Shown here piece after piece: positions 44,930 through 57,685 of a stretch of DNA of 64,000 bases. The translations under genes and the position numbers were made by a program. The notes under the pieces were generated by a model that was given only the letters and a program-made list of their open reading frames with translations, made no database searches and was not told the DNA's origin. The stretch comes from a virus. Location of the stretch: positions 120,197-184,196 of the IMG/VR virus record IMGVR_UViG_3300038441_000779; one strand, 5' to 3'. Position 1 is the first letter of the stretch, and the number at the start of each line of letters is the position of its first letter.

Positions 44930-45931
44930 TTACAGCAGAACGCCGTTAGCGTCGGCACCAGCGCTCATGTCTTTCTGAGGGACATACACGCCCTGGTTGA
45001 TCGACTTGCGCTTGGTCAGCTCATCCAGTTGCTCTTGCAGTTTGGCGGTGGTTTCACCGTGGTCGAACAGCATGTGCAGTTGGGTGATCTCGCCTGGCAG
45101 GACGGTGTTCTTGGCGAAGACGCCAGTGGAACGCACCACCGCACCTGGGAAGGTAGCGCTGATGTTGTCCTTGTTGTCGAACAGGCTGACGGTAGCAACC
45201 GGGGTGGCAGCTTTGTACTTGGTCGGATCATCGTAGAACGAGATGTGCGACAGGACCGGAGGAACACCGTAGAACTTGGAGCAGTTCAGGATGTTGGCCA
45301 GGTCGCTGATATCTTGCTCGTCGTTGTCCTGGCTGGCGAACAGGGAGAACAGGGAGATCTTGTTGATGACCTCTTTGTCGATTTGACCGCGAGTCTTCTC
45401 TGGAATGTTGCGGAACTCCATGTAACCGATGGTGGAGTTCAGGTAGTTCGGCTGAGCCTGGATCGCCATCGACTGTACGGTACGGATGGAGTTTTCCATT
45501 TCGACCTGAGTGGTGTGGTCGGTGATGATTGCCAGTACCACCGAATGGCCGTTCTGCTTCAGCCAGCGGACAACCAGGGTAGCCAGCATGGAGCCCGAAC
45601 CACCGGCGCCGGAGCAGACCACGACGTTGAAGACGCCAGGGGTGTACTTGTTCATGACGCGTTCAACGAACGGCTGAGCTTCAGCGTAGTTGGTCGACTT
45701 GACCTTACCGGAACCCTGGGCCAGTTGTTGTGGATTGCCGGACGCAGGAACACGTTCCAGAGGGATACCCAGTTCTTCGGGCAGACGGTTGTTGCCGGAC
45801 GCATCGAGAGCGACGTAGGAAGCGTTCTTCACGCGATCAGAAGGGCTGCTGGTCTTCAGCAGTTTGGCGATGTTGATACCAGCGCCGCCACAGACGATGA
45901 AGTTCAGTTCTTGCTTAGCAGTCATATCCAT
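44930..45931 (-). CDS. phuZ: PhuZ, phage tubulin/FtsZ-like GTPase (333 aa)
   Basis: The tubulin-family GTP loops are present: CGGAGINIAKLL near the N-terminus (residues 14-25) and the signature CSGAGGSGSM at 106-115, the GGGTG(S/T)G equivalent. The length is close to known phage tubulins (about 315-340 residues). PhuZ filaments form a bipolar spindle that centres the phage nucleus and carries capsids to it. Codon bias is strong. Start ATG 45931 (or 45925, two codons later). Its own terminator follows, and an exact TATATTAC box lies 67 nt upstream, consistent with early transcription by the virion polymerase. The C-terminal tail needed for polymerisation in relatives is not obviously acidic here. 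Confidence 0.9.
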   Translation of the reverse strand: MDMTAKQELNFIVCGGAGINIAKLLKTSSPSDRVKNASYVALDASGNNRLPEELGIPLERVPASGNPQQLAQGSGKVKSTNYAEAQPFVERVMNKYTPGVFNVVVCSGAGGSGSMLATLVVRWLKQNGHSVVLAIITDHTTQVEMENSIRTVQSMAIQAQPNYLNSTIGYMEFRNIPEKTRGQIDKEVINKISLFSLFASQDNDEQDISDLANILNCSKFYGVPPVLSHISFYDDPTKYKAATPVATVSLFDNKDNISATFPGAVVRSTGVFAKNTVLPGEITQLHMLFDHGETTAKLQEQLDELTKRKSINQGVYVPQKDMSAGADANGVLL

Positions 45932-45995
45932 ACTCTCTTCTACAATTGGTATTACGAAACTGTGGTGAGCAAATCATTTGTGATCTACTACGCCT

Positions 45996-46018
45996 AAGTA
46001 ATATAGTTCCAAAAAGTT
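45996..46018 (-). promoter_or_regulatory. Early-promoter-like element upstream of phuZ
   Basis: Minus-strand CTTTTTGGAACTATATTACT contains an exact TATATTAC (45998-46005), the core reported for phiKZ early promoters, 67 nt before the phuZ ATG. Confidence 0.6.
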
Positions 46019-46069
46019 ATTGGGCTACATAACTTGGGCTCTTAGTGAAAATGCAAAAAAGAAAAGACC

Positions 46070-46101
46070 CTACCTTATCCCCTATTAAAGGAATAAGGTA
46101 G
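46070..46101 (-). terminator. Terminator at the end of the tRNA/ncRNA region
   Basis: CTACCTTATCCCC and GGAATAAGGTAG form an 11-12 bp stem around ATTAAA. On the minus strand it is followed by GGTCTTTTCTTTTTTGC, a T-run. It would end the minus-strand tRNA transcript. Confidence 0.75.
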
Positions 46102-46563
46102 GCACCAAGTGGTGTCGGTAAAAGCATGAGTACCAAAGACCGACACCAAGATAGGAACCCCCTTCCCTGATGAATTAAGCCGAACCCTAAAACGACTAAG
46201 TTCGGTCTTCAGTATAACATGTTTCCATAGTTGCAAAAAAATAAAGAATAGGCCCCACCCAATACTCCTAGACCAACTGTCAATGACGGCTGGGATCAGA
46301 GTATTAGATGAGGGGAGGTTTTCAGTGGCTGCCCTTACGGGGTCGCCCAACCAGTGCAACGAGGCAGACGAAAATACTGGTTGTTGCTTAAGGACCTCCT
46401 AACCTAAGCTGGAGCAGCGCAGCAGGTCGAAGATAAAGCAAGGATGGCATCCCCTCAAAGTCATACTGCCGGCCAGGCTGCCTGAACTAAACGAGAGGAT
46501 ACCTGATGAACAAGCAATGGGGTGTGCTTATTCACCTACACGGCCGCTAGACCATGTTTGGAG
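46102..46563 (-). other. Structured region without convincing genes
   Basis: No credible protein gene. Several inverted repeats suggest RNA structure. GGTGTCGGT ... ACCGACACC spans 46112-46148. GCCGAACC ... ACTAAGTTCGGT is near 46168-46206. AATACTC ... GAGTATT with outer CCCC/GGGG arms spans 46253-46316, followed on the minus strand by a T-rich run (46235-46248) that makes it terminator-like. GGAGGT ... ACCTCC encloses 46313-46399. The elements may be processed leaders or small RNAs of the minus-strand tRNA transcript; none matches a family I know. Confidence 0.4.
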
Positions 46564-46647
46564 GGGAGCTGGTCGGACTCGAACCGACGACCTATGGGTG
46601 AGGGACTAGTATCACCCACCGCGCTAACCAACTGCGCTACAACTCCC
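46564..46647 (-). tRNA. tRNA-like gene with enlarged anticodon arm (identity unclear)
   Basis: 84 nt. The acceptor is GGGAGTTG with CAGCTCCC. The D-arm GCGC/GCGC encloses AGTTGGTTA. The canonical T-arm is GTCGG-TTCGAGT-CCGAC. Between the D-arm and AGGTC, the anticodon arm reads GTGGGTGA, loop TACTAGTCCC, TCACCCAT: either an 8-bp stem with a 10-nt loop or a 5-bp stem with a 16-nt loop. A normal tRNA has a 5-bp stem and a 7-nt loop. The anticodon cannot be read with confidence (GAU or CUA are candidates). CCA is not encoded. Confidence 0.6.
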
Positions 46648-46652
46648 ACATT

Positions 46653-46728
46653 TGGCTCCGTAACCAGGACTCGAACCTGGGACCCACGCATTAACAGTGC
46701 GTTGCTCTACCGACTGAGCTATCACGGA
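46653..46728 (-). tRNA. tRNA-Asn (GUU)
   Basis: 76 nt with encoded CCA. The acceptor is TCCGTGA/TTACGGA, the D-arm GCTC/GAGC, and the anticodon arm ACGCA-CTGTTAA-TGCGT reads GTT. The T-arm CCAGG-TTCGAGT-CCTGG is canonical. Lies 5 nt from the preceding tRNA-like gene, in the same orientation. Confidence 0.95.
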
Positions 46729-46737
46729 AGAAATCTT

Positions 46738-46803
46738 GACGGTCCAATTCGGACTTTTACCGCACTTACACAAGAGCTTGCGGCTCAAGGGAGCCCGACC
46801 GTC
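46738..46803 (-). ncRNA. tRNA-shaped element with perfect 7-bp closing stem
   Basis: 66 nt closed by GACGGTC/GACCGTC. Inside are a D-arm-like hairpin GGCTC-CCTT-GAGCC and an anticodon-arm-like hairpin CCGCA with TGCGG around a 14-nt loop. A final AGTCC-GAATT-GGAC hairpin competes with the closing stem. There is no canonical T-loop. It sits between tRNA-Asn and tRNA-Trp. It may be a decayed tRNA, a processed spacer, or a deliberate structure; it is not called a functional tRNA here. Confidence 0.4.
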
Positions 46804-46867
46804 CGGGCGCCGAGTGCTTTCTTTACCTACCAGGGTTCCTTGATCAATGGTCCTTTGTAAGTTAATG

Positions 46868-46943
46868 TGGCAGTCCAGTCAGGAGTCGAACCTGAAACCT
46901 ACGGCTTTGGAGGCCGTTGCTCTGCCAGTTGAGCTACTGAACC
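46868..46943 (-). tRNA. tRNA-Trp (CCA)
   Basis: 76 nt with encoded CCA. The acceptor GGTTCAG/CTGGACT includes G-U pairs. The anticodon arm is ACGGC-CTCCAAA-GCCGT and reads CCA. The T-arm is TCAGG-TTCGACT-CCTGA. Canonical throughout. Confidence 0.94.
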
Positions 46944-47025
46944 AAATAGGTCCTTCCCGGGAGGGAAGGAAGGGTGCAACCGGGTTTCCTGCTTCAGTGT
47001 ATATTTCTTTACAAACCTTTTAGCT

Positions 47026-47109
47026 GGGGGAGGTGGATTTCGGACCCTACCACCATTTCACACGGTACTAGAAAATTCCCGTGTGGAGTTTAAGCTTAAC
47101 TTACCCCCC
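47026..47109 (-). ncRNA. Cloverleaf-like RNA with oversized loops
   Basis: 84 nt closed by GGGGGG/CCCCC. It holds three internal hairpins in tRNA order: AGTT-AAGCTTA-AACT (4 bp), CACACGG around a 13-nt loop to CCGTGTG (7 bp), and GGTGG around the 13-nt loop TAGGGTCCGAAAT to CCACC (5 bp). The D-loop lacks GG and the T-loop is not TTCGAAT. The shape is tRNA, but the loops are not. A related T-arm-like hairpin recurs near 47510. Confidence 0.45.
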
Positions 47110-47224
47110 GTTTACACTGACGCGATTGCGGCGAGCCGACCTGACCGTCGGCTAATACCAGGATAAAGATCCCGGTTCGTTGCGGCTGTAGGAAGCCGTT
47201 GAGAAACCTACAGTCGGAACAAGA

Positions 47225-47364
47225 CAGAGAGTGCACGATTCGAACGTGCGGACCCACATCCCGTAAGTTGCAGATAATGGGTACATCCGGTTTCTACGCC
47301 CCAACCACGCCGTGGCTAGGTTAAGCGTACCACCAGACTCCTTAAACCACTCGGACAACTCTCT
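47225..47364 (-). tRNA. tRNA-like gene of the class II type with about 50 nt extra
   Basis: 140 nt. The acceptor AGAGAGT/ACTCTCT is perfect with discriminator G. The D-arm TGTCCGAGTGGTTTAAGGA is typical of Ser/Leu tRNAs. The T-arm GCACG-TTCGAAT-CGTGC is canonical. A Ser/Leu tRNA would be about 87 nt. Here the anticodon/variable part is about 50 nt longer, and no standard anticodon arm is evident (TCTGG/CCGGA or GTGG/CCAC stems are possible). This could be an inserted intron-like segment, a giant variable arm, or a damaged gene. Confidence 0.55.
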
Positions 47365-47370
47365 AGAATA

Positions 47371-47447
47371 TGGCGCGACCAGAGGGACTCGAACCCTCGA
47401 CCATCCGCGTGACAGGCGGATATTCTAACCGGCTGAACTATGGCCGC
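47371..47447 (-). tRNA. tRNA-Asp (GUC)
   Basis: 77 nt with encoded CCA. The acceptor is GCGGCCA/TGGTCGC. The anticodon arm is TCCGC-CTGTCAC-GCGGA and reads GTC. The T-arm is GAGGG-TTCGAGT-CCCTC. Canonical, and 6 nt upstream of the class II-like element in transcription order. Confidence 0.95.
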
Positions 47448-52620: not shown

Positions 52621-55600
52621 TTATGCTGCGCGTTTATGTTGCAGGATGCGTTTGGCCCTTTCGACTTTGGCGTTTTCCAGCAGGGTATCCACGGTCAACA
52701 GCTTCGCAGTATCTGGTGGGAGCAGCTTAGACATCTTGTGAATCTCTGCCTCCAGCCTGAGTGCTAGGATGTTGTCGTTGGTCTTCAACAACTCTTCCGT
52801 GAGGTTATGAATCCGCAACCGCACGTTCTCGAAGAATTGCATGATGCTTGGATCCACTGGCTTCTCTTCCTTGTTCTTACCGACGTCCAAGAGGTTCTTG
52901 GTATCAGTAAGTGCCAGTGCTGCGGTAATGCCGTAGTAAGGCTTGTTACCACCCAGCTTGATGAACCAGTAGGTGAGCAACCAAGCAATTACCAAGTCGT
53001 CGTGTTGTTTGCTATCGTGGTCGATCCGGTCGCCCTTAGTCCTTAGGTTGATCAGTTCGTCCGCCAGCTTGTCGTAGTTGATACCGTAACCAGTTACCGC
53101 CACTGCTTCCTGAATCAACCCATACAACACTTCACGCGATTTAGCCGTCGTGTTAAAGCCGAACAGGTGTTTGAGTTTCAGGTAAAAGTTCTTGTCGCGG
53201 TAGCTGAACTTGGTGTTCTGTACCATCTCCAACTCTTTCTGGTGCAGAGCCGGGTTCTGATACACCTGGTTGTAGATCCGGGTAAATGGATCCATGCCTT
53301 TACTAGGCAACAGAATCAACAGACTGTCGATCATGTGGTGGGCGTAGTTACGCTCAATGACCAACACACTGTTCTGCAACACTTGCAGCATATCCACGAT
53401 AATGGCTGTAACGTCGTCGAGCATGGCCAGAGCATATCGACCTACCCCTACGACTCTACCCGTCTTCATGGAACGGATGATCATGGTGCAGGCGTCTTTG
53501 TTAACCGCCGACGAAGTATCCACCCCAATGATGAAGTGGTCGTTGTATTCCTTCTTGCTCATCTCCATGAGCTTTTCTTGTGTAACGAAGAAGTCAACGA
53601 ACAAACCGCTATTGCGATACTCCTTACTCCAGACCCGATCGCGTTTGACGTTGTTAATGGCTTCCCGCGTCACGTCGTCAAACAGTCGGTTCTCACCATC
53701 TTCCACCCACATCAACAACAAGTCGATCTTCGCCTTAGACAGACTAAGGTTCAGTTCGTCAATGGTCTTCTTTACCCAGTCCTTGTTCTTGCCAAGTTGT
53801 AGGTAGTTGTAAACCATCGAAACAGCAGGAGCGGTAGTACGTTCTGGGGATGCCTTGATCAAGCGGTCCTTGAGATGGCTCTCGCTGTACGAGTCGAAGA
53901 ACTTCTCACGCCATTCGGTAGCCGACATGAGTTTCTTGAACATGAAATCGCCACTTGGGTGGAGAGTCGTGTTCGGGGTGGTGATGTACCCAATACCGTA
54001 TGGGATGCCAGCTTCGCGACAGAGTTCCATTTCCGTCAATGCAGAAGGCATCGCACCGTTGATGATCTCCTCGATCCACTGAATGTAACCTGGTTCGTCG
54101 AGGAAGGTAGTGCCTACGGTCAAACCCCGTCCAACGTCGCCAGCGGCATCTTTACCGATCTGTGGTACGTTGATGGTCAGGGTGTTTACCTTGTCGTCAC
54201 CAAAGGCTTTGTAGTTGAGGTACGTACCTGCGTCTTTGTCCTTGTACGTGGGGTTAACCAAATACGTCGGGATACAACTACGCATCCGTTTAACAGCATC
54301 AATGAACTGTGCACGGTTATCACTCTTCAGAGTAATTACGTGGGTCTTGTAACCACGACCATTGATGTACGTCAACCAGAAGTTGATCACCTGCACCGAT
54401 ACAGTGTTGTGGGTAACAATGAAGTCATCCGTTACGTACAGATGTTCTTCGTTATCCACCTCGATGCAAGTACACTCATCGTCACCAGCATAAGTGATAC
54501 TTTCAACGAACAACTGGTTAGGAGCAGTTACTTCCTTTCCCTTGGTAAAGCGATAGTAGTCGATACCTTCAGGCAGTGTGATTAACACACCGTCTTCGAC
54601 CTTCTTCGCTGTACCACCCAGACTACGAGCCAGGTATTGGAGTTGCTGTACTATGACCTTGTTGTCCGTCTGGTAGAGCATACCCTGTGGGGTAGCCTCC
54701 CCGCGGTCGAGAAACGCCTGCAGCAGCTCCACACGGTCCTTTATAGGACCTTCCAGGTAGTCTTGCGGTACGCCCGGCGATTGACTGATGGTCATCTCAT
54801 CTTTGTTGGCCATTTGCAGGTAATAGTTATCACCTTCGACGACAAACTTCAGATGTTTAGGCAACTTGGTCATCAAATAACTGACGAGTTTGTCAGTAAC
54901 GTGACTCAGCTTGATCTTGCCGTCGACATAATGGTTAGCAAACAACAACCCCATCACATATGGACGCATGCTGCGTTTCTGTTGAGGGCCGTCTTCCGGT
55001 TCAATCAACGGCAGCTCGATCTTGATACCCTTCTTGATACGGGTAATCATTTGCGCTGTGGAATACTCATCCCAAATCGCATTATCGTTCAACGTGTTGG
55101 AATAGTCAGCCACGTTCCACAGGTGTTCGGCGCCAGCGTCAGTAGAACGCCCGTCAGAGCACTTAACTGTGTATAGACGCTTCGTACCCTGGGGGTGGAT
55201 GCCAATGACCGTGGTGACCTTACCAGAGCGGTCTATGACGTCATCGCCAATACGCAGGTCTTTGATCTTGACCCAGCAGTGCCCTGGTAGTTGATTACCG
55301 TTGCGGCTTTTAGCCTTAACCCGCACCTTACTACTGTTACGCTGGAACTTGCCCTGTTGACGAGGCATGATCATGTAAGTGGTAATGTGGTTCAGGTAGT
55401 TCCAGATGAAACTGATGTTCCCCCGGTTAGCCTGGAAGAACCGATCACTACGTACCTTACATACTTCCCGCAGGAAGTACCAGAAGTTGGTTCGTGATTC
55501 CTCCATGATCCACGCGGTCTGCTCGTTAGTCAGATCTTCAGCGTATGGATCTACCCCTTTCAACATGGGGTTGTTCAATTGCAAGCAGAAGAAGTAGTTC

Positions 55601-55905
55601 TTAATTCCCTGCTTACGGAAAATCTCAGCGGTACGTAGGAAACTAGTGTTCTTAGTATCCAGGTCCGGCACCGCACGATAACGAGCAAAGTCTTTCAGGA
55701 ACCGAGCGGTACGGATGCTGTAGAGACTGTCTTCGTTATAGTGCGCCAGCAGTGTTTCGTCGTCCGTACGTGCGTGAGACTCCACACGTTTGATCTGGTC
55801 GTCAATCAGAACCTTGGGGAGGTTATGCGCTCCTAGGTAGTTCTGTAGATTTTTCGCCGTCTCGAGTAACTTAGCATACTCCTCATTCACGAGAATTACC
55901 CCCAA
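52621..55905 (-). CDS. terL: Terminase large subunit precursor containing an intein (1094 aa)
   Basis: Packaging ATPase-nuclease. N-extein residues 1-186 end in MPRQQGK. The C-extein begins TVSVQVINFW, so splicing restores the Walker A element RQQGKT of T4 gp17-type terminases. Walker B is TTFLDEPGY. The nuclease (RNase H fold) acidic residues appear in IGVDTSSAVNKD, LVIERNYAH and DHDSKQHDDLVIAW. Mature length would be about 780 residues, near phiKZ gp25. Residues 187-500 are the intein, described separately. Without splicing the ATPase would be interrupted in its P-loop and inactive. Start ATG 55905; between two terminators, so it forms its own transcription unit. Confidence 0.93.
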   Translation of the reverse strand: MGVILVNEEYAKLLETAKNLQNYLGAHNLPKVLIDDQIKRVESHARTDDETLLAHYNEDSLYSIRTARFLKDFARYRAVPDLDTKNTSFLRTAEIFRKQGIKNYFFCLQLNNPMLKGVDPYAEDLTNEQTAWIMEESRTNFWYFLREVCKVRSDRFFQANRGNISFIWNYLNHITTYMIMPRQQGKFQRNSSKVRVKAKSRNGNQLPGHCWVKIKDLRIGDDVIDRSGKVTTVIGIHPQGTKRLYTVKCSDGRSTDAGAEHLWNVADYSNTLNDNAIWDEYSTAQMITRIKKGIKIELPLIEPEDGPQQKRSMRPYVMGLLFANHYVDGKIKLSHVTDKLVSYLMTKLPKHLKFVVEGDNYYLQMANKDEMTISQSPGVPQDYLEGPIKDRVELLQAFLDRGEATPQGMLYQTDNKVIVQQLQYLARSLGGTAKKVEDGVLITLPEGIDYYRFTKGKEVTAPNQLFVESITYAGDDECTCIEVDNEEHLYVTDDFIVTHNTVSVQVINFWLTYINGRGYKTHVITLKSDNRAQFIDAVKRMRSCIPTYLVNPTYKDKDAGTYLNYKAFGDDKVNTLTINVPQIGKDAAGDVGRGLTVGTTFLDEPGYIQWIEEIINGAMPSALTEMELCREAGIPYGIGYITTPNTTLHPSGDFMFKKLMSATEWREKFFDSYSESHLKDRLIKASPERTTAPAVSMVYNYLQLGKNKDWVKKTIDELNLSLSKAKIDLLLMWVEDGENRLFDDVTREAINNVKRDRVWSKEYRNSGLFVDFFVTQEKLMEMSKKEYNDHFIIGVDTSSAVNKDACTMIIRSMKTGRVVGVGRYALAMLDDVTAIIVDMLQVLQNSVLVIERNYAHHMIDSLLILLPSKGMDPFTRIYNQVYQNPALHQKELEMVQNTKFSYRDKNFYLKLKHLFGFNTTAKSREVLYGLIQEAVAVTGYGINYDKLADELINLRTKGDRIDHDSKQHDDLVIAWLLTYWFIKLGGNKPYYGITAALALTDTKNLLDVGKNKEEKPVDPSIMQFFENVRLRIHNLTEELLKTNDNILALRLEAEIHKMSKLLPPDTAKLLTVDTLLENAKVERAKRILQHKRAA
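54406..55347 (-). mobile_element. Class 3 intein with degenerate LAGLIDADG-type region (314 aa)
   Basis: In-frame insertion at terminase residues 187-500. Block B is SDGRSTDAGAEHLWNV, with the Trp of class 3 inteins. Block F contains ECTCIEVDNEEHLYVT, with the Cys. Block G is FIVTHN, followed by Thr as the first C-extein residue: the WCT triplet. The first intein residue is Phe, not Cys or Ser, which fits class 3 chemistry, where the block F Cys attacks first. The middle part (MGLLFANHYVDGKIKLS; LLQAFLDRGEATPQG) resembles two LAGLIDADG motifs. The first lacks the catalytic acid position, so homing activity may be lost. Confidence 0.88.
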
Positions 55906-55919
55906 GCGGTTAAAAAGGT

Positions 55920-55954
55920 AACTAACCTACCGGGGGATACCCGGTAGGTTAGTT
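55920..55954 (-). terminator. Terminator between structural gene and terminase
   Basis: AACTAACCTACCGGG and CCCGGTAGGTTAGTT with a 5-nt loop; it follows the stop at 55967 on the minus strand and precedes the terminase ATG. Confidence 0.87.
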
Positions 55955-55966
55955 TGTACGTAAGAT

Positions 55967-57685
55967 TTACACAGTAACGATTACACCGGTGGAAGCCAGT
56001 TGCAGCTCCTTACCGCTACCATCACGATTCACCCACACAATGTACCAAGTTTTGCCTGGTTGCATGGAGATAGTGATCGGCAGATCCTTGTTCCAGTCAG
56101 CCAGAGGGTACAGCCATTTACGGCCATCCTCGTGCATCAGGTAGAAGTGCGTTGGGCTAGGAGCCTTCTCCTCGTTCCAAGTATCGTAACTTGGGTAGAC
56201 GCCCCAGAACAACGCATTCAGCCAATCCACTTGCTTGGTGAAACCGTTGGTAACGTTGGCCTTACTGCTGGCACCGTTGTTGGTAGCCTTCAGGTTCAGA
56301 GCTTGATAGGTAGGCTTGTCGAAGACGAAGCTCACGTCAAACTTCTTACCGGCAGTATTGAGGTCACGGTACAGCACGATCTCGGTGTACTGGACGAACG
56401 TAGCACTCACGTAAGTAGGCGCCACGTCCCGCAGGTTGATGTTGAAGATCAAGCTCTGCGCCACACCGTAGGAACTCGGACGCCAGGCAGGGCTTTGATC
56501 GTTCATGGTAACCTTGTCGGATACGTCGATGAACGTCTTACGATCCAGGTCATACAGGAAGTGCTGCAGTCGGTAACCGTTGATCGCAGTATCCCATTGC
56601 GGGTAGGTGTACAACCGTGGGGCGTAAGCACCATCCACGTTACCTGCTTCCAGGGAATACGTACGACGTTCGAACAGCGGGCTACCAGGACGGGCCTCGT
56701 AGAACTGCTCGTTAGGCGACAGCTTGTAGATCAACACCACTTCGTTGGTCTGACCAGGGAAGGTTGGACGGTGTTCCTGCAAACCTTCCAGAACGAACTT
56801 CTCACCGTTAACCGGCATTGGTCCAGAAGTAGTACCGTCGCTGTACAGCACCTCAGCACGGAGTTCCAGTGCCAACAGGTTAACGTTGATTGGAACGATG
56901 ATCTTGCCTGGCTGGTTACTGTTACTGAACCATGGAGCCAACAGACGGATCTCGGTAACGTACTTGATACCAACGCGGTGGTCTTTCATGTACGCCGAAT
57001 GCTGTACTCGCACCAACTGTCCAGGAGGAATGAAGTTACCCCCTTGGTCGAAGAATGCCAGGAAGCATTGAGTGCCGTTAACCAGCGACTCCTCGTTCTC
57101 AGTCACACTGAACTGGCCAGTGGTCTTGATCTCCAGGTTGGTCCGATCCACGATCTCCGCCAAAGGCGTCGGGATCTTGTTGGTCTGCATCACCCCACCC
57201 TGGTCATACACCGCGGAGATAATCTTTCCTTCATCGCCTGGGGTATTACCTTTGTAGAGCAATGCGTAAGCAGCACCCGGCCGCATGATGGTCGCGTCGA
57301 CACGAGCCACGTTTGGACGCACACTGAAGTCAACAGCCAACAGTGCCTCGCCAAGCATTGGACCGCCCTTAATGCCGAACACCCAATCCTGCTCGAGGAC
57401 GTTCTCATCATTAGGGTTGTTGTTCTGCCAAGGCACCAAGGTAGCTTTGAGGGTACCCTCGTAGTCCACTTTGGCACAGCGATACCAATAACCTCGATCA
57501 ACGTCGAGAATCAACTGGTTCTCGAAAGGAACCACGTAGTTATCTTTTTCCGAAACGTCGTGGATATCAGGGTTGTACATATCCTCAATATAGAGGATAG
57601 TCCGGCGCTCTCCTTGGTTGCGTTGTGTGGGGGCAAGTGCCGCCACCGCGCCCGTGGCGGAGCTGTTCGGTTTACTATCGAACAT
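55967..57685 (-). CDS. Virion structural protein near tail genes (572 aa)
   Basis: Beta-rich protein with optimised codons, beginning MFDSKPNSSATGAVAALAPT. No transmembrane helix or enzymatic motif. Its ATG overlaps the end of the 892-residue gene by 11 nt. In phiKZ, structural genes gp26-gp28 lie between terminase (gp25) and sheath (gp29), which is the arrangement seen here. Tail or baseplate-associated role is inferred. The nearly full-length antisense frame is a shadow. Confidence 0.68.
   Translation of the reverse strand: MFDSKPNSSATGAVAALAPTQRNQGERRTILYIEDMYNPDIHDVSEKDNYVVPFENQLILDVDRGYWYRCAKVDYEGTLKATLVPWQNNNPNDENVLEQDWVFGIKGGPMLGEALLAVDFSVRPNVARVDATIMRPGAAYALLYKGNTPGDEGKIISAVYDQGGVMQTNKIPTPLAEIVDRTNLEIKTTGQFSVTENEESLVNGTQCFLAFFDQGGNFIPPGQLVRVQHSAYMKDHRVGIKYVTEIRLLAPWFSNSNQPGKIIVPINVNLLALELRAEVLYSDGTTSGPMPVNGEKFVLEGLQEHRPTFPGQTNEVVLIYKLSPNEQFYEARPGSPLFERRTYSLEAGNVDGAYAPRLYTYPQWDTAINGYRLQHFLYDLDRKTFIDVSDKVTMNDQSPAWRPSSYGVAQSLIFNINLRDVAPTYVSATFVQYTEIVLYRDLNTAGKKFDVSFVFDKPTYQALNLKATNNGASSKANVTNGFTKQVDWLNALFWGVYPSYDTWNEEKAPSPTHFYLMHEDGRKWLYPLADWNKDLPITISMQPGKTWYIVWVNRDGSGKELQLASTGVIVTV

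Follow-up and report, generated by a model that had tools for sequence, protein, structure and literature searches.

The window analysed here, one strand of 64,000 nucleotides, is the final 64 kb of a 184,196-base IMG/VR virus record, and it carries a long open reading frame on its minus strand (Table 1) whose product is a terminase large subunit (PHROG phrog_2, E 2e-42). The translation aligned end to end with gp011 (TerL) of Pseudomonas phage EL and with its counterparts in other EL-type jumbo phages, the exteins being 70% identical to those of EL gp011 over 775 columns, and this homology over both exteins marks the predicted product as a large terminase subunit of the phiKZ/EL type. The Walker A motif was assigned from homology, from the PRQ-x-GK[T/S] pattern and from PHROG TerL matches; a profile search of the C-extein against solved terminase structures gave no convincing match. 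The start of terL is uncertain: the TTG lacks a clear ribosome-binding site and the GTG has a G-rich stretch upstream. On the minus strand, a 15-bp stem-loop with a T-run after it (55920-55954) is likely a terminator separating the upstream gene (55967-57685) from terL. Elsewhere in the window, five tRNA genes (Ile, Asn, Trp, Gly, Asp) are clustered on the minus strand at 46563-47447.

Table 1. Features of the terL locus, in positions of the window and in the order in which they are translated.
Feature	Positions	Strand	Remarks
terL precursor ORF (N-extein, intein, C-extein)	52621..55905	minus	1094 aa; TTG start, or GTG at 55890
N-extein	55348..55905	minus	last residues ...MIMPRQQGK (Walker A through Lys)
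Class 3 intein, 314 aa (strongly supported)	54406..55347	minus	sequence, profile, predicted structure, same-site relatives
Position 1, Phe (no nucleophile)	55345..55347	minus	39 same-site relatives compared
Block B His75-Leu76-Trp77 (H B:10; W B:12 of the WCT triplet)	55117..55125	minus	His and Trp invariant 39/39
Remnant LAGLIDADG homing-endonuclease domain, intein residues 115-270	54538..55005	minus	fold kept (predicted), catalytic residues lost; PI-SceI E 2e-10
Degenerate LAGLIDADG motif 1, MGLLFANH	54931..54954	minus	catalytic Asp replaced by Asn138
Degenerate LAGLIDADG motif 2, LLQAFLDRGE	54697..54726	minus	catalytic Asp replaced by Gly216
Cys294, block F F:4 (E-C-T-C-I-E-V), predicted first nucleophile	54466..54468	minus	invariant 39/39
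Block G Thr312-His313-Asn314 (G:5, G:6, G:7)	54406..54414	minus	invariant 39/39
C-extein	52624..54405	minus	from the +1 Thr to the TerL end; the +1 Thr would be the Walker A Thr once spliced

The terminase sequence is interrupted exactly between the Lys and the Thr of Walker A (PRQQGK|F...THN|TVS, with flanks MIMPRQQGK and TVSVQVI). A preliminary description of this DNA had placed an intein here, and its coordinates proved exact, as did its 314 residues, the Phe at the first position and the Thr-His-Asn at the end. It had also given about 780 residues for the spliced product, in line with the 780 that we compute from the TTG (775 from the GTG) when the insertion is left out. The same junction is uninterrupted in the Vibrio phages pTD1 and VP4B and in Kosakonia phage Kc263, which read PRQQGK-TVTAQ or PRQSGK-TVGMQ, and phiKZ-type phages have an unbroken PRQTGK-SV at the insertion point. 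PDCC-1, in which the intein is present, and pTD1, in which it is absent, have exteins that are 89% identical, and around the junction they share the same residues and nearly all bases. Because these empty-site relatives have an unbroken junction, the 314-residue segment is, by alignment, an in-frame insertion and not a domain of the terminase. The preliminary description had named an alignment revealing a normal domain of homologous terminases as the outcome that would speak against an intein, and the alignment revealed these empty sites instead. An ordinary lineage-specific domain that is never removed would agree with the presence of the segment in every EL-type TerL sampled; nevertheless, the empty-site homologs keep Walker A whole, the segment has a predicted intein and endonuclease fold, its splicing residues are invariant, and inteins of the same family follow the Walker A Lys in many unrelated ATPases, so that we give this explanation almost no credence.

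Class 3 inteins, a minority type, are recognised by Trp at B:12, Cys at F:4, Thr at G:5 and Ser or Thr at +1, and do not require a nucleophile at position 1 (PMC5222942; PMC7891396). The predicted window intein has all of these features (W77, C294, T312 and a +1 Thr, with no nucleophile at position 1), and its C-terminal His-Asn followed by Thr (THN then T) is what would be expected of an intein in general. H75, W77, C294, T312, H313 and N314 were found to be invariant in all 39 distinct same-site inteins, and the WCT triplet of the preliminary description was thus confirmed residue by residue; the +1 residue in these inteins is Thr. Since this invariance holds despite amino-acid identities to the window intein of down to about 28%, the alignment excludes a chance origin of the signature. 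Position 1 among the same 39 inteins is Y, M, A, F, E, L, P, Q, N or D, and never C, S or T. The bulky residues found there (Phe, Tyr, Met, Leu) offer material for the study of class 3 splicing, the wider family having mostly Ala.

The window sequence alone gave marginal matches that were both below cut-off (Pfam Hom_end_hint, E 0.01; NCBIfam intein_Cterm, E 0.45), and, as such single-sequence scans are weak for this intein, profile and structure comparisons were used. A profile built from 52 relatives matched, among PDB entries, a gp41-1 variant carrying the WCT motif (E 3.5e-17) and the class 3 DnaB inteins 6rix and 6bs8 (E about 1e-12), and its nuclease region matched PI-SceI (E 2e-10). The AlphaFold model of the intein reached a pLDDT of 94 and a pTM of 0.92 when the input held the 52 sequences with six extein residues per side, and a pLDDT of 69 with 3 sequences. 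In Foldseek searches with this model, VMA/PI-SceI inteins matched its full length and class 3 DnaB inteins its splicing domain, at target TM-scores of 0.73-0.77. Both the profile and the modelled structure therefore point to a Hedgehog/intein (HINT) fold. Taken together, sequence, structure prediction and empty-site relatives strongly support the view that a class 3 intein sits within Walker A of TerL.

Additionally, the central part of the intein resembles a LAGLIDADG homing endonuclease whose motifs have degenerated. The preliminary description, right about a class 3 intein, had overlooked both this degraded region and the orthology to the EL intein described below. The same-site inteins of Klebsiella phages Miami and N1M2 have intact motifs (LGVLLGDG / LGALIGDG for motif 1 and LLDTDG / LMDTDG for motif 2), and among the 39 same-site inteins the catalytic Asp is retained in three at motif 1 and in three at motif 2. 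An active LAGLIDADG enzyme would have two catalytic Asp, and neither is found in the window intein; its nuclease is predicted to be dead, although the model of its fold has high confidence. Across the set 21 window residues are invariant: the splicing parts (158 positions) hold 20 of them and the remnant (156 positions) one. In most close pairs dN/dS (NG86) was about 0.03-0.34 in the remnant and about 0.02-0.2 in the splicing parts, and in most close pairs of the wider clade it was about 0.01-0.08 in the C-extein, lower than in the remnant, all of these values being approximate because dS is noisy and often near saturation. The fold of the remnant thus persists under purifying selection, its approximate dN/dS being well below 1. 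A degenerate endonuclease half might also be taken as a sign that the whole intein has decayed and no longer splices, the gene being a pseudogene or packaging being carried out by another ATPase. We regard this as very unlikely, since every splicing residue is intact, the reading frame is open across 1094 codons and the C-extein has the low dN/dS given above.

The distribution of the intein points to its history. It is present in 36 of 36 IMG/VR loci of the IMPRQQGK (EL) type, with none empty, in a sample that consists of the best 80 matches of one scan, near-duplicates included; in the same sample, empty sites occur only in the LILPRQQGK, ILMPRQSGK and phiKZ types. Extein and intein distances are strongly correlated (Mantel r 0.91, or 0.93 without the Vibrio-type rows; 0 of 5000 permutations), and the main groups are common to both trees. 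The branches of the intein tree that do not match the extein tree (L030, L033, FishSpeaker, RisingSun and the L031/L049/L055 group) reflect some recombination or weak resolution. Between closely related phages in the group L031, L049, L055 and L058 the nuclease remnant is about 65% identical, compared with about 82-91% in the splicing parts and 90-98% in the exteins, and another pairing of the remnant reaches about 89%, which suggests that the interior of the intein was exchanged by recombination among them. Given its presence at every one of the 36 EL-type loci in the sample, and its co-divergence with the terminase, the intein seems in this clade to be passed on vertically and to be dead for homing. 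The predicted intactness of the endonuclease fold would be compatible with an enzyme that remains active and an intein that is still invading; this is, in our judgement, highly improbable given that both catalytic Asp are replaced (Asn138, Gly216), that the EL-type clade is without any empty-site allele among the loci sampled and that the intein co-diverges with its extein.

The explanation that best accounts for the whole, and that we hold to be very probable, is a class 3 intein that splices in the TerL of an EL-like jumbo phage, is dead for homing and has been kept by vertical descent. In the precursor, the ATP-binding loop would be split by the intein, so the packaging ATPase would presumably be inactive, with no normal ATP binding; a like argument has been made for the unspliced precursor of the DnaBi1 intein (PMC6195587). 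The steps that we propose for splicing follow class 3 chemistry (PMC5222942, PMC4031507). If it reacts as characterised class 3 inteins do, Cys294 would attack the Lys-Phe peptide bond to give a branched thioester at block F, the N-extein would then be transferred to the +1 Thr, and Asn314 would cyclise with the assistance of His313. The exteins would finally be joined as PRQQGK-TVSVQ in a protein of about 780 residues, the +1 Thr becoming the Thr of Walker A. As for its origin, the ancestral intein would have carried a LAGLIDADG homing endonuclease and spread through homing, and in the EL-type clade the catalytic residues of the nuclease would have been lost, the intein being inherited vertically with terL from then on. 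An old invasion followed by nuclease loss and vertical retention is the simplest account of these data, and we infer that the intein has been kept because deletions that remove it exactly would be rare within so essential a motif and because failure to splice would be lethal. The homing-dead state, apparently fixed across a clade of jumbo phages, is the aspect worth following: here a class 3 intein that seems to have lost homing has stayed, with its splicing residues intact, at one site in an essential motor, and this well-sampled natural example can serve to examine why inteins persist when they no longer home.

A different reason for its retention would be regulation. The preliminary description had proposed that splicing might act as a timing or redox switch for DNA packaging, a proposal for which we found no support. 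Several observations would fit a regulated, redox- or timing-dependent splicing that gates packaging: the insertion obstructs Walker A, the whole EL-type clade keeps the intein without a functional homing nuclease, the endonuclease remnant is under purifying selection, and oxidation reversibly inhibits DnaBi1, a class 3 P-loop intein of M. smegmatis (PMC6195587). Furthermore, in 24 of the 39 same-site inteins C292 forms a C-x-C pair with the nucleophile Cys294, and it is the only recurrent second cysteine among them, two residues before the nucleophile. However, a redox partner cysteine of the DnaBi1 type, searched for by alignment, is absent from the window intein, where the regulatory Cys48 of DnaBi1 corresponds to Leu58. 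C292 itself is replaced by Ala, Ser or Thr in the remaining 15 of the 39, and the other cysteines of the window intein, C24 and C63, are not conserved. Five mycobacteriophage TerL inteins were quick to splice in a reporter (PMC5050341), and vertical retention would be expected regardless for an insertion in an essential motif. Retention through regulated splicing therefore seems unlikely. We are equally doubtful of the broader proposal of a domesticated, homing-dead class 3 intein in EL-type jumbo phages whose splicing delays or conditions the active packaging ATPase and whose dead but folded endonuclease is kept by selection.

Lastly, the window intein was compared with known systems. It is an ortholog of the intein in gp011 of phage EL (YP_418044.1) and thus a known kind of element and not a new one: in EL and its Elvirus relatives the gene, the insertion site, the WCT signature and the degenerate nuclease are as in the window. 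The two differ by sequence divergence only, with 46% identity in the intein and 70% in the exteins, and EL has Gln at position 1 where the window intein has Phe. The TerL intein of EL is contained in the public EL genome record and is presumably the one catalogued in InBase as 'phiEL ORF11'. The records give each EL-type terL gene as one long protein, in some cases under the name 'DarB-like antirestriction' or 'helicase', and annotators would do well to exclude the intein from any comparison of terminases. A second, related WCT intein of EL lies in gp039, which encodes the RNA polymerase beta subunit (L148 / L208; EL 45470-46543), whereas a search of the window record for inteins at E <= 0.001 gave a single match, the TerL intein.

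Inteins of the same class 3 family, usually with an AQPLDAK- start, lie directly after the Walker A Lys in IMG/VR sequences and bacterial genomes (L115-L207), and N-termini such as AQPLDAKI were found right after this Lys in the relative scan. Their hosts are unrelated ATPases, DnaB-like (RPSMGK), AAA+ (EPGVGK) and many others, with Thr or Ser at +1. The preference for the Walker A Lys site is a habit of the family, since the same family follows this residue in so many unrelated ATPases. A related intein sequence was also seen in plasmid records (H191-H195): it lies in a conjugation gene annotated as traD (KR827394.1), and four enterobacterial plasmids have it at matching positions.

The DnaB inteins of M. 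smegmatis and M. chimaera (6bs8, 6rix) share the class 3 signature and the splicing-domain fold with the window intein. DnaBi1 likewise sits in the P-loop of an ATPase, with the P-loop Ser as its +1 residue (PMC6195587) where the window has Thr; it is a mini-intein without a nuclease domain and has Cys48, whereas the window intein has an endonuclease remnant and a Leu at that place. Terminase inteins have been noted in other jumbo phages (PMC5259590, PMC7412058) and described in mycobacteriophages, where representatives were shown to splice (PMC5050341). Among the latter, which are inserted in the ATPase domain of the terminase, TerL1-a lies between the P-loop Lys and Thr, as in the window, and TerL1-c and TerL1-e are class 3 inteins that were among those shown to splice, although their sites are in a helix and in Walker B, unlike the P-loop site found here; the endonuclease of TerL1-c is still active (PMC5050341), whereas that of the window intein is predicted to be dead.
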